Position numbers and translations under genes: made by a program
DNA from: Arabidopsis thaliana
Taxonomy: Eukaryota > Streptophyta > Magnoliopsida > Brassicales > Brassicaceae
Reading direction: 5' to 3'
DNA length: 64,000 nt
NCBI RefSeq assembly: GCF_000001735.4
Contig: NC_003076.8
Location: 21,765,835-21,829,834, forward strand
Shown here: positions 45,801-49,733 of the stretch, piece by piece
Numbering within the stretch: the first letter of the stretch is position 1
Layout: each line of letters begins with the position of its first letter
The notes under the pieces: model-generated
What the model was told of the DNA's origin: nothing
Database searches by the model: none
What the model saw: only the letters and a program-made list of their open reading frames with translations

Positions 45801-45930
45801 GCAACTTGGAATCTCCATTATTCGCTCTGGTAAAAAGATTAACTATAGAAAAGTTATAAGATAATAAGAAGATATCAATACAAAGTACTGAGGCAAGACA
45901 AAAAAATGAACGATGTCGCAAAAAAAATAG
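42880..45930. other. Intergenic, 3 kb, no gene recognised
   Basis: AT-rich, with (TA)n near 44720-44736. Frames up to about 75 codons resemble nothing known. The first 300 bp should be the NHL26 promoter (GAT repeats in the leader at about 42893-42907). Confidence 0.5.
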
Positions 45931-45933
45931 GAA

Positions 45934-46149
45934 CCTGTCAGACCGCCGTGCGACCACCCCGGCTAGGGTAAACCGAGCCGAGTAACGATCCTCTACAGCA
46001 CCGGATGCGTCCGAGGACAATCGTAGCCGTCAATCACGCTCTAGCCGCACGGTCATGGTTCATCAACCAGGGTTTAGGGCCTGTCTCTTGAGAAATCAAG
46101 GAAACAGAGGTACGAGCCTATAGAACAGATCCTGTTCAAGTAAGGTCGT
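45934..46149 (-). ncRNA. U3: U3 snoRNA gene, copy 1
   Basis: Minus-strand sequence begins ACGACCTTACTTGAACAGGA, the hallmark 5' end of plant U3, which base-pairs with the pre-rRNA 5' ETS and 18S region. It has internal GATGAACCATGACCG (box C-like), GAGCGTGATTGACGG (box B-like) and a 3' terminal GTCTGACAGG (box D). Length about 216 nt, as expected. U3 guides cleavage at the A0-A2 sites in the nucleolar SSU processome. In plants U3 is made by RNA polymerase III; here the TATA box starts 30 bases upstream, the USE lies 25-26 bp before it, and an eight-T run (about 45921-45928) follows the 3' end as terminator. Confidence 0.95.
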
Positions 46150-46170
46150 GACCATTGCTGCTCTCTCAAT

Positions 46171-46215
46171 GTTATATATCCGGCAACATTGTTTTTCAAA
46201 ATAGCGATGTGGGAC
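46171..46215 (-). promoter_or_regulatory. U3 copy 1 promoter: USE and TATA with Pol III spacing
   Basis: USE GTCCCACATCG on the minus strand (46205-46215) and TATATAAC (46171-46178). About 26 bp separates the two, the short spacing that in plants specifies RNA polymerase III for snRNA-type genes. Confidence 0.92.
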
Positions 46216-46825
46216 AAAGTTATATAAAGATCACATTAGAAAAGCATGCATGGGTCGTGATATATGGACTAAGGCCCACTTAATTATCATATAAAGCCCC
46301 TCCCTAAATTAGCGTTGAAAATTATCATTAAGTCAATATGATTTGCGAAGTATAGGCGTATAGCTATTAAGTGTGATAAATTCGTTCTCAATTATGTGCG
46401 GGTAACAAAGCTATCTTCATTATATCAGACGATGTTGAAACTTTTTTTTTTGTTTTTCTGCCGATGTGAAGATATAACCTATTAGAACAAGCAAAGCAGT
46501 CATTCATGTCCCAATCATTTTTTTATTTCATGCTATGATCCGAAAATTTTGTTCCTTTCTTGGATTACCAATGATGAAACCTAGAAGAACTACAGATTTG
46601 ACGTCTCTCAGTGACTGCATAGCCGCTCGTTGTGATAGCTTGCTTCTGGGGAAGTCTCACAGTAAACAGATATTAATTACATAATCTGTATAACCTTAAA
46701 CGCCAAACTAAATGTTGTGTTATAATACTCCTCCTTTCTAATGACAAACACTGAGCTTCTATACAACCATTACTAAACCCTAGAGAAAAATATTTCATAT
46801 CATTTTGAAACTGAAGAATTGATGG

Positions 46826-46955
46826 AGGTTTATTATTTAGTAATAAACCTTTCCAAAAATAGGCGTATGCCGTTTAAAAGCAGAGAGAACACGATATTCT
46901 TTAGTAAAAGGCGAAAGAATAGTTCGCTATGCCCTCACTGCACGGCTCCGTGAGT
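46826..46955 (-). ncRNA. U5: U5 spliceosomal snRNA gene
   Basis: Minus-strand sequence contains the invariant U5 loop I, CGCCTTTTACTAAAG, flanked by ATTCTTT/AAAGAAT stem arms. An Sm-binding site (ATTTTTGG) follows, then a perfect 3' hairpin with GGTTTATTA and TAATAAACC arms. U5 holds exon ends in the spliceosome. The 5' end is placed about 30 bases after the TATA box and is uncertain by roughly 10 bases; the 3' end is placed just past the terminal hairpin. The USE-to-TATA spacing is the longer Pol II type, as expected for U5. Confidence 0.9.
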
Positions 46956-46980
46956 CTTACCGAGTTGCTCTCGCTCTCTT

Positions 46981-47029
46981 TATATACTTTGTTTTACTCT
47001 GTTCCTGAGTATCCTGCCCGATGTGGGAT
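46981..47029 (-). promoter_or_regulatory. U5 promoter: USE and TATA with Pol II spacing
   Basis: USE ATCCCACATCG on the minus strand (about 47019-47029) and TATATAAAG (TATATA at 46981-46986). About 32 bp lies between them, one helical turn more than at the two U3 genes. Confidence 0.9.
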
Positions 47030-47551
47030 CTAGCAAATCAATTAGCAAGCTTTTGATAGATTAATAAGGGCTTAAACTGATCCTTATAGCCCATTTCAGT
47101 TAAGCCCAACTATGTTGTTAATGTTCTGCCATGACGGAGCTAGATTGAAAGGAATGAATCCTAGAAATGCTGAAGAAAGAAAGTACAGTATATATGTTTT
47201 GCTGTTATTACATAAAACTGTTACATATTAAAGTCGTTGATTAAGCATGTTTCTAACAAAAATACAATGTAAACAGTCAACGTAGTTTTTTTTTTCTTTC
47301 TTTTATATTCTCTTGAATTTATTGTTTAGAACCTATATACAACTTGAGTGAGTCAATTTGTAACAGTGTAACACTTCCATGTTTTTATTCAAAGATTGTC
47401 AAAACGGATGACTCAAGGGTAACTCTCGGATTTAACTTGAGCTACTCTATAAATTGTTCATTTCTTTTGAATACCAAAACCATCCCAGTCAAGCAATTTC
47501 ACTCTATCTCCTCTGACTCAAAAGAAAAATAAGGAAACAATATATACGTGC
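47030..47551. other. Divergent spacer between U5 and the ECA1-like gene
   Basis: No coding sequence recognised. Confidence 0.5.
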
Positions 47552-48184
47552 AATGGAAGGTAGGATCGAAGCTCTTCTCTCCACTATTCTAGTTGTGACG
47601 ACTCTGTGTGCCAACTACTCTATTGACACCAGGACAAGCCGAGGGACTCGTGACACCGCAATTTCTTTCTATTCCTGGTTCTCCAATTGATCTCACAAAA
47701 TGTTGGTCATCACTCCTCAACATTCAAGGTTGTAAAATCGAGATCTTTAAATCTGTTTTTAAGTGGTAAGTTTGAAAACGTTGGACCAACATGCTGCAAG
47801 GCGTTTACGGAGGTGGATGCAAAGTGTTGGCCAAAAATGTTTCCGTTGAATCCATTATTCCCTCCTCTTCTCAAGGATGGTTGCTCTCGCATCATCTCTG
47901 GCGCACCAACACACACGAAACCTCAATTCCTTGTCATCCCTGGTTCTCCGATCGATCTCACAAAATGTTTGTCATCACTTGTTAACGTTGAAGGTTGCGT
48001 AACTGAAATCTACAAATCAGTTTTCACAGGAAAGTTTGGTAATGTTGGATATATGTGCTGCAAGGCGTTTTCAGCTGTGGATGTAAAATGTTGGCCACAA
48101 ATGTTTCCGCTAAATCCGTTCTTCCCTCCTCTTCTCAAGAAGGAATGTTCTCCTATCAACGCAGCCACTCCTACACACAAATGA
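47552..48184 (+). pseudogene. ECA1-type secreted cysteine-rich protein with two tandem domains, first one damaged
   Basis: From ATG 47552 a signal-peptide-like sequence (MEGRIEALLSTILVVTTLCAN) begins. Two copies of a prolamin-like (ECA1 gametogenesis-related) domain follow: FLSIPGSPIDLTKCWSSLLNIQGC... and FLVIPGSPIDLTKCLSSLVNVEGC...CCKAFSAVDVKCWPQMFPLNPFFPPLL. The first copy is interrupted by at least two frame changes, one after the signal region and one after KSVF; the second (about 47918-48184) is open, with all six cysteines (KC, GC, CC, KC, EC). From 47687 one frame runs 165 codons through the rest of domain 1 and all of domain 2, but without a signal peptide. Family members are usually single-domain, 110-160 residues, secreted by the egg cell or embryo sac. 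Probably AT5G53742. Confidence 0.75.
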
Positions 48185-48198
48185 AAGTAACTACAAAA

Positions 48199-48414
48199 CC
48201 TGTCAGACCGCCGTGCGACCACCCCAGCAAGGTAGAACCGAACCGAGTAACGATCCTCTACAGCACCGAATGCGTCCGAGGACGATCGTAGCCGTCAATC
48301 ACGCTCTAGCCGCACGGTCATGGTTCATCAACCAGGGTAAAGGGCCTGTCTCTTGAGAAATCAAGGAAACAGAGGTACGAGCCTATAGAACAGATCCTGT
48401 TCAAGTAAGGTCGT
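48199..48414 (-). ncRNA. U3: U3 snoRNA gene, copy 2
   Basis: Same 5' end, boxes and 216-nt length as copy 1, with about ten substitutions concentrated in the 3' domain. Its USE (48470-48480) and TATA (about 48436-48445) have the same short spacing. Only a four-T run follows the 3' end (48195-48198), shorter than in copy 1. It converges on the ECA1-like gene, whose stop codon is just 15 bases from the U3 3' end. Flanking sequence upstream of U3 is shared with copy 1 up to about 46660/49770, so a whole segment was duplicated. Confidence 0.93.
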
Positions 48415-48435
48415 GACACATGTTGCTCTCTCAAT

Positions 48436-48480
48436 CTTATATATACAGCAACATTTGTTTTCAAATTAGCGATGTGGGAG
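48436..48480 (-). promoter_or_regulatory. U3 copy 2 promoter: USE and TATA with Pol III spacing
   Basis: USE reads CTCCCACATCG on the minus strand (48470-48480), one base off the RTCCCACATCG consensus. The TATA region is TATATATAAG at 48436-48445. Confidence 0.88.
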
Positions 48481-48815: not shown

Positions 48816-49733
48816 GATAGAGATCATTGTATATAAATACCATAGTTTGTGAATCAATAAAATCAAGTCAGTTCAATACCTTATTCTACATGGTATCAGA
48901 GCAGTCGATCTTTGTGGATCATAATTAAAGCTTCCGCATTATAGTTTTTGTAATCAAGAAAAGATTATGAAGATGGTGATCACTGAAGGAGAAGACGGTG
49001 CCTCCGACGGTGGAAATGAAAACGACGAAGATGTCGGCATGTTAAGGGATGGAGGTTACGTGATTGTTTCTTAATCACATGGGTATTATTTTTCCAAAAC
49101 TTTAAGTCGTTGGTTTTCTATGTTTTTAATAGGATTGGTTTTGGTTTTTCTTTTTCTTTTTATGTTACTGGAATTATTCTTGAGTTAAGAAATTTTCAGA
49201 GTTTTTGTGTTCTTAGTAAGAGAGTTTGGTAATAGTTTTACCGTTACGGGGGAGTTTGGTTATGGTTTAGCCATTAGTAGAGTTTGTGGAACATTCATGT
49301 TTTTAGGTCATGTTTAGTCCCGAGTTATAGACCGTCCAAGATAAAGATGATTGTTTGTGGAGCAGCATAATTTGTGTACACGGGATGTATTCCCTTTTAC
49401 CAAGACCGAAGACATGATGAAGTTCCACCCCAAGAATGAAGTTTATACCCTAAGATGTTTATTTACATGATTTGTCCGTCCTCGACATATTGTCCACGAC
49501 ATACGTGTTCCGCTTTGTGATTGCAAAGTTTGCGTTTTGCGTACCACGTTTGTCGTGCGGGGGAGTATTGGGGATATATGTTATCCGATTAGGATTAGTA
49601 CAATATCTTTGATGATAGAGTTTCTAACCTATATTTTAGGGATTTATGTTTATCTTTTGATAGAAATCATTGTATATAAATACCATAGTTTGTGAATCAA
49701 TAAAATCAAGTCAGTTCAATACCTTATTCTACA
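48816..49733 (+). mobile_element. Broken non-coding Ty1/Copia-type LTR element
   Basis: Terminal repeats sharing TATATAAATACCATAGTTTG and ending TTATTCTACA lie at about 48816-48890 and 49567-49733. A Met-tRNA primer-binding site, TGGTATCAGAGC (48891-48902), follows the first, and a purine tract with GGGGGAG (about 49559-49565) precedes the second. The roughly 660-bp interior has no gag or pol homology. It is broken; the first repeat is shorter than the second. The repeats are very similar, suggesting a young insertion. It sits inside the duplicated U3 upstream segment; the matching DNA at about 46590-46600 has no insertion. Confidence 0.85.

Follow-up and report, generated by a model that had tools for sequence, protein, structure and literature searches.

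How can genes that appear to be read by two different RNA polymerases stand side by side behind the same promoter parts, and how did such a grouping come about? This question is raised by a U3-U5-U3 gene group in the window, the 64 kb stretch of Arabidopsis thaliana DNA analyzed here (C5:21765835-21829834). The explanation that we hold to be very probable is that these are three plant small-RNA genes of the standard kind, each with an external promoter, in which the spacing between the promoter parts sets RNA polymerase III for the U3 genes and RNA polymerase II for U5, and that they were brought together by local duplication.

The three genes and their promoters

Three Rfam matches in the 64 kb reach the gathering score, all of them on the minus strand and each spanning its whole model uncut; two lower-scoring, overlapping matches of the same clan were left out. 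The matches correspond to an upper U3 snoRNA gene (U3a, 48197..48414, 191.3 bits) and a lower U3 snoRNA gene (U3b, 45932..46149, 195.9 bits), both covering positions 1-221 of the Plant_U3 model RF01847, for which the gathering score is 80, and to a U5 snRNA gene between them (46828..46947) that matches the U5 model RF00020 with 79.1 bits at a gathering score of 40. The original prediction had placed three minus-strand genes of the snRNA type at this site and had named a covariance search as the way to check them. This search agrees with it in position as well as in family (Plant_U3 twice and U5 once, all above gathering), and the U5 assignment is also borne out by the presence of loop I and of the Sm-type sequence AUUUUUGG.

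The U5 gene is already catalogued. Both atU5-13 (At5g53745) and atU5-11 (At5g54065) appear in a published table as genes on the minus strand of chromosome 5 (PMC545797), and the positions given there, which refer to an older assembly, show an equal offset of about 17,230 bases from U5 matches found here; by position, the window U5 is atU5-13. When the 14 U5 genes of the genome were aligned, GCCTTTTAC of loop I and ATTTTTGG were found to be invariant, and RNAalifold returned 29 pairs, 8 of which show, in one sequence or more, changes on both sides that preserve the pairing. In the 5' part of the window copy, 22 of the 23 Rfam pairs are retained, and its six 3'-stem pairs are A-U throughout. Its score is the lowest among the 14 U5 matches, which speaks for an alternative that we consider rather unlikely, namely, that the U5 copy, or one or both of the U3 copies, are silent relics with promoters that look intact merely through recent copying. 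However, several of the U5 differences are compensatory, all three window genes retain a USE, a TATA box, the spacing of their class, and a full RNA, and the ASRG survey deems all 14 U5 genes active (PMC545797).

Exact copies of TCCCACATCG occur three times in the window, compared to a mean of 0.07 in 100 shuffled versions (largest count, 1), and they stand upstream of U3, U5, and U3, one each. All promoter parts lie on the minus strand. The USE of the upper U3 (CTCCCACATCG, 48470..48480) agrees with RTCCCACATCG at 10 of 11 positions, its first base being C instead of R, and the corresponding TATA box is TATATATAA (48437..48445). For the U5 gene, the USE is ATCCCACATCG (47019..47029) and the TATA box TATATAAAG (46978..46986), and for the lower U3, these elements are GTCCCACATCG (46205..46215) and TATATAACA (46170..46178). 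Measured by one fixed rule, the USE-to-TATA gap amounts to 26 in the lower U3, 32 in U5, and 24 in the upper U3, the last value being counted from the first TATA and changing to 26 when the box is read as TATATAA. Gaps of 25-26 for the U3 genes and of about 32 for U5 had been predicted, and these figures hold, with a small mismatch that is due to the TATA register. The USE and the TATA box are hence some three helical turns apart in both U3 genes and some four turns apart in U5.

We infer the polymerase of each gene from this spacing, from the 3' signals described below, and from the literature, and we presume that all three genes are expressed. One kind of USE and TATA box would serve U3, U5, and U3. 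With about three helical turns between the two elements, the U3 promoters would recruit RNA polymerase III, which would stop at a T-run; with about four turns, the U5 promoter would recruit RNA polymerase II, and the 3' end would be made at a downstream 3' box. The USE has been described as being one helical turn nearer to the TATA box in U6 and U3 genes than in polymerase II genes, in which the distance is four turns (PMC9845283). The cluster is an instance of a rule known since 1990, in known genes, and is ordinary overall; its interest is that it presents the polymerase-choice rule, with the same promoter parts, in one place. The studies by Waibel and Filipowicz in 1990 and by Kiss and co-workers in 1991 are said to be the founding papers of the spacing rule.

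Promoter spacing and 3' signals across gene families

The genome (119,662,809 bases) was surveyed for matches to U1, U2, U3, U4, U5, and U6, with the gene family serving as the class label. Since the searches score only the best candidates, all match counts are lower bounds. Genes were kept when the USE agreed at 9 or more of 11 positions and the TATA box at 6 or more of 7, a filter that was set after the listing of spacings had been viewed. This left 53 genes from a total of at least 75 matches. Of the 22 dropped matches, 12 exceed the cut-off of their own family; the upstream DNA reads N in two dropped U2 matches. All kept genes but one score over their family cut-off, the exception being L070, a U1 match with a gap of 40.

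The spacing classes of the kept genes do not overlap. The 17 U3 and U6 genes kept, from at least 31 matches, all have gaps of 23-26, with 24-26 in U3 (8 of 9 best-candidate matches kept) and 23-26 in U6 (9 of 22); these plant polymerase III genes have the same USE, TATA box, and gap as the window U3 genes. The U1, U2, U4, and U5 families, from which 36 genes were kept out of at least 44 matches, have a gap of 31-35 in 35 cases and, like the window U5, combine it with a USE, a TATA box, and a 3' box. Counted again among best candidates, their gaps are 31-34 in U5 (14 of 14 matches kept), 33-34 in U4 (8 of 10), 33-35 in U1 apart from L070 (12 of 15), and 34 in U2 (2 of 5), a family with 18 genes in a published survey (PMC545797). 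The two spacing classes that had been proposed for this locus were right: the gap is typical of the class in 52 of the 53 kept genes, with only L070 at 40 standing outside, and the division of the gene families by spacing is a clean one.

Two other ways of measuring the spacing were tried and abandoned. A register-free measure that uses the center or the end of the A/T run at the TATA box separates the classes as well, yet it has outliers (such as one U6 center at 22 and two U1 centers at 35.5 and 36) because the length of the A/T run varies, and it was set aside for this reason. A scan of the genome for USE and TATA together gave 118 forward and 186 reverse matches, compared to 7 and 3 in the controls, but was rejected as a census of spacing, since overlapping TATA registers are counted separately and near-identical repeats contribute to the count; among the matches listed, which are on C1 and C2, many are near-identical repeats with TCCCACATCG. 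A minor observation concerns L072 (C4:12225774-12225936), a weak U1 match of 35.2 bits, below the cut-off, that is without a USE of its own; its first base coincides with the final base of a strong U1 match in the same orientation.

At the 3' end, a run of at least five T is present in 16 of the 17 kept U3 and U6 genes (7 of 8 and 9 of 9, respectively) and in 6 of the 36 kept U1, U2, U4, and U5 genes. The 3' box, described as being needed for plant snRNA processing (PMC5079582), was found in its relaxed form in 30 of these 36 genes and in its strict form in 18, whereas neither form was found in any of the 17 U3 and U6 genes. Among the 14 U5 genes, 5 have the strict form and 12 the strict or the relaxed form. 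The box of the window U5 (46805..46821, read from 46821 to 46805 on the minus strand) has the relaxed form CA-N7-AGT-N3-AA and is one base longer than the strict consensus CAN3-10AGTNNAA, the strict form being absent; several other U5 genes share the extra base. Like the low score and the all-A-U 3' stem of the window U5, and like the short T-run of the upper U3 described below, this extra base counts to some degree against the reading of the locus as three standard genes, as does the fact that the filter was set after viewing the spacings. The lower U3 ends in a T8 run (45920..45927, minus strand) that resembles a polymerase III terminator. Agreement with polymerase III is thus provided by the spacing of both U3 genes and by the T-run of the lower one only.

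In the original prediction, the cluster was regarded as a natural paired test of polymerase choice within one neighborhood. Its gene identities and spacing classes stand, but the value of the pairing was overstated, since U3 and U5 genes also differ in the transcribed sequence and in the 3' signal, so that their nearness controls for the neighborhood only. The causal test is a change of the promoter spacing, which, judging by its title, was reportedly the subject of the 1990 study by Waibel and Filipowicz (Nature 346:199). A closer natural comparison than that of U3 with U5 is offered, for polymerase III termination, by the two U3 genes, which differ at the terminator.

Neighborhood and probable duplication history

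The region C5:21.81-21.99 Mb holds five of the nine U3 matches and two of the 14 U5 matches (best candidates). In addition to the group in the window, a second U3/U5 pair is located about 130 kb away, with U5 at C5:21939739 and U3 at C5:21945390, 5.5 kb apart. U3 and U5 are thus linked at two places on a single chromosome arm. An Rfam scan of 9 kb around this second U5 gave no match besides the U5 itself. We consider it improbable that the nearness of U3 and U5 reflects a chance placement of multi-copy genes, even with 9 U3 and 14 U5 matches in the genome: two of the 14 U5 matches have a U3 at a distance of 6 kb or less, where random placement would give 0.011 (P ~0.0001 in 20,000 draws), and the Prolamin_like units that recur at these genes, described below, point to duplication. 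Chance gains some ground from the fact that the distance cut-offs were picked after the data had been viewed and that P depends on them, with values of 0.0035 at 2 kb (1 of 14), 0.0002 at 10 kb, 0.0026 at 50 kb, and 0.028 at 200 kb.

Another explanation is that the cluster functions as a cluster, for example, in a coordinated supply of U3 and U5 or in joint recruitment to a nuclear body. Linkage of U3 and U5 is known in Euglena gracilis too, where U3 adjoins U5 in multiple copies generated by duplication (PMC2784804), as seems to be the case in the window. However, the Euglena U5 is downstream of U3 and convergent with it, whereas the three window genes share the same direction, and no U3-U5 neighbor is present within 20 kb of 12 of the 14 U5 matches and 6 of the 9 U3 matches (best candidates). 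A function of this kind is therefore highly improbable.

Among the genome matches scored, every U6 is more than 20 kb from any U1, U2, U4, or U5, which leaves U3-U5 as the sole pairing of mixed class in the six families. The snRNA clusters of Arabidopsis in the ASRG survey are likewise adjoining small-RNA genes, which the survey explains by duplication (PMC545797). Its ten clusters consist of polymerase II-class genes only (seven U1-U4, one U2-U5, a tandem U2, and a tandem U5), and the term U3 snoRNA is absent from its text, whereas the window cluster mixes U3 and U5. The literature matches listed, by which subscription journals are mostly uncovered, contain no title on a U3-U5 cluster in Arabidopsis, and the Euglena paper (PMC2784804) is their sole title on U3-U5 linkage.

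Local duplication accompanied by rearrangement is the most likely origin of the U3-U5-U3 grouping, because the U3 genes have flanks in common and because, at three places on this chromosome arm, a Prolamin_like copy adjoins a U3 or a U5. The upstream match between the two window U3 genes is in pieces: 91.5% identity over 330 bases that include the gene is followed by stretches of 28, 136, and 36 bases. This common sequence reaches 46631 at the lower U3, about 480 bp from the gene, and 49767 at the upper U3, where it is interrupted by an LTR-type repeat of 918 bases (48816-49733) that is absent from the matching region of the lower U3. The end repeats of this element, 77 bases long, are 98.7% alike, and the first is followed by TGGTATCAGA, which we take to be primer-binding-site-like; a 99% copy is found at C3:18831006-18831923, preceded there by a longer end repeat.

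The window Prolamin_like sequence (PF05617) is a two-domain gene copy with a broken frame on the plus strand (47553..48184; Pfam 8.8e-25 in two stretches, ORF 47687-48184). Copies of this kind adjoin the upper U3, the U3 at C5:21888292 (L012), and the U5 at C5:21939739, and they are downstream and convergent in all three cases. In the copy at the U5, the frame is open over 217 aa; by comparison with it, the window copy carries a frameshift, and that at C5:21888292 is also broken. In the genome, this family has 121 matches, including a tandem array at C5:14.32-14.45 Mb.

We also asked whether the entire U3 unit had simply been duplicated in tandem. The upstream flanks favor this, but the RNA of the upper U3 is nearer to copies elsewhere than to the lower U3: it departs from its nearest copy, the U3 at C5:21945390 (L010), at 4 positions (C to T at 3 of these) and from L012 at 6, compared to 10 for the lower U3, and the tandem scheme was rejected. 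Given this order of similarity, and since the upper U3 and L012 both adjoin a Prolamin_like copy, the history looks mosaic. Judged from the copies compared, conversion or stepwise copying among the U3 genes is likely.

The upper U3 gene and its 3' end

The upper U3 is the sole member of the 8 kept U3 genes without a run of at least five T, and in this it differs from the other plant U3 and U6 genes of the survey. It has TTTT only (48195..48198, minus strand), and the next run of four or more T is at 48088-48085. The Prolamin_like copy, which is convergent with the upper U3 and divergent from U5, has its stop codon 12 bp from the 3' end of the U3. The copies at C5:21888292 and C5:21939739 have about 43 bases in common beyond the equivalent of position 48193, whereas the window copy stops matching both of them at 48193, 9 bases past the stop codon, and the U3 3' end is at 48197. 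The simplest reading seems to be a deletion that removed the T-run of the upper U3 together with the 3' flank of the Prolamin_like copy and joined the two.

The missing 3' flank and T-run also lend some weight to the view that this gene is a silent relic, as do its differences from L010, mostly C to T changes, and its 3' hairpin, which is the least stable of the 8 (-8.4 compared to -12.1 to -14.3 kcal/mol). Nevertheless, the predicted fold of this hairpin is kept as in L010, with wobble pairs replacing C-G pairs, and the energy of the whole RNA (-77.5) falls between the extremes found in the seven remaining copies (-74.9 and -87.6).

If the upper U3 is instead one of three standard genes, as we prefer to think, a further proposal can be made, which we put forward tentatively and as less probable than not. 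The upper U3 would be a polymerase III gene with a deleted terminator that may read through into the antisense of the convergent Prolamin_like copy, with transcripts of about 330 nt when ending at the next T4 on its strand and of about 582 nt when ending at the next T5, and U3, U5, and Prolamin_like may have been propagated jointly on this chromosome arm, as a unit that was duplicated repeatedly. If this is true, the upper and lower U3 would constitute a much better matched pair for the study of polymerase III termination in a plant. The absence of the T-run and the convergent neighbor do not figure in the original prediction, and no part of the locus lends itself better to testing than the weak terminator of the upper U3. 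A published northern blot in which the main U3.5 band is near 300 nt (PMC7464842) was considered as evidence for read-through and set aside, as the band is assignable to no single copy here.

Two U3 matches elsewhere in the genome depart from the rest. L015 (C4:421983-422194) is a U3 copy with a USE, a TATA box, and a T8 run that has lost 11 bases near its 5' end and differs at 27-36 positions from each of the seven further U3 copies compared. L016 (C3:11313437-11313545), which matches over 109 bases and lacks a USE, is an apparent U3 relic.
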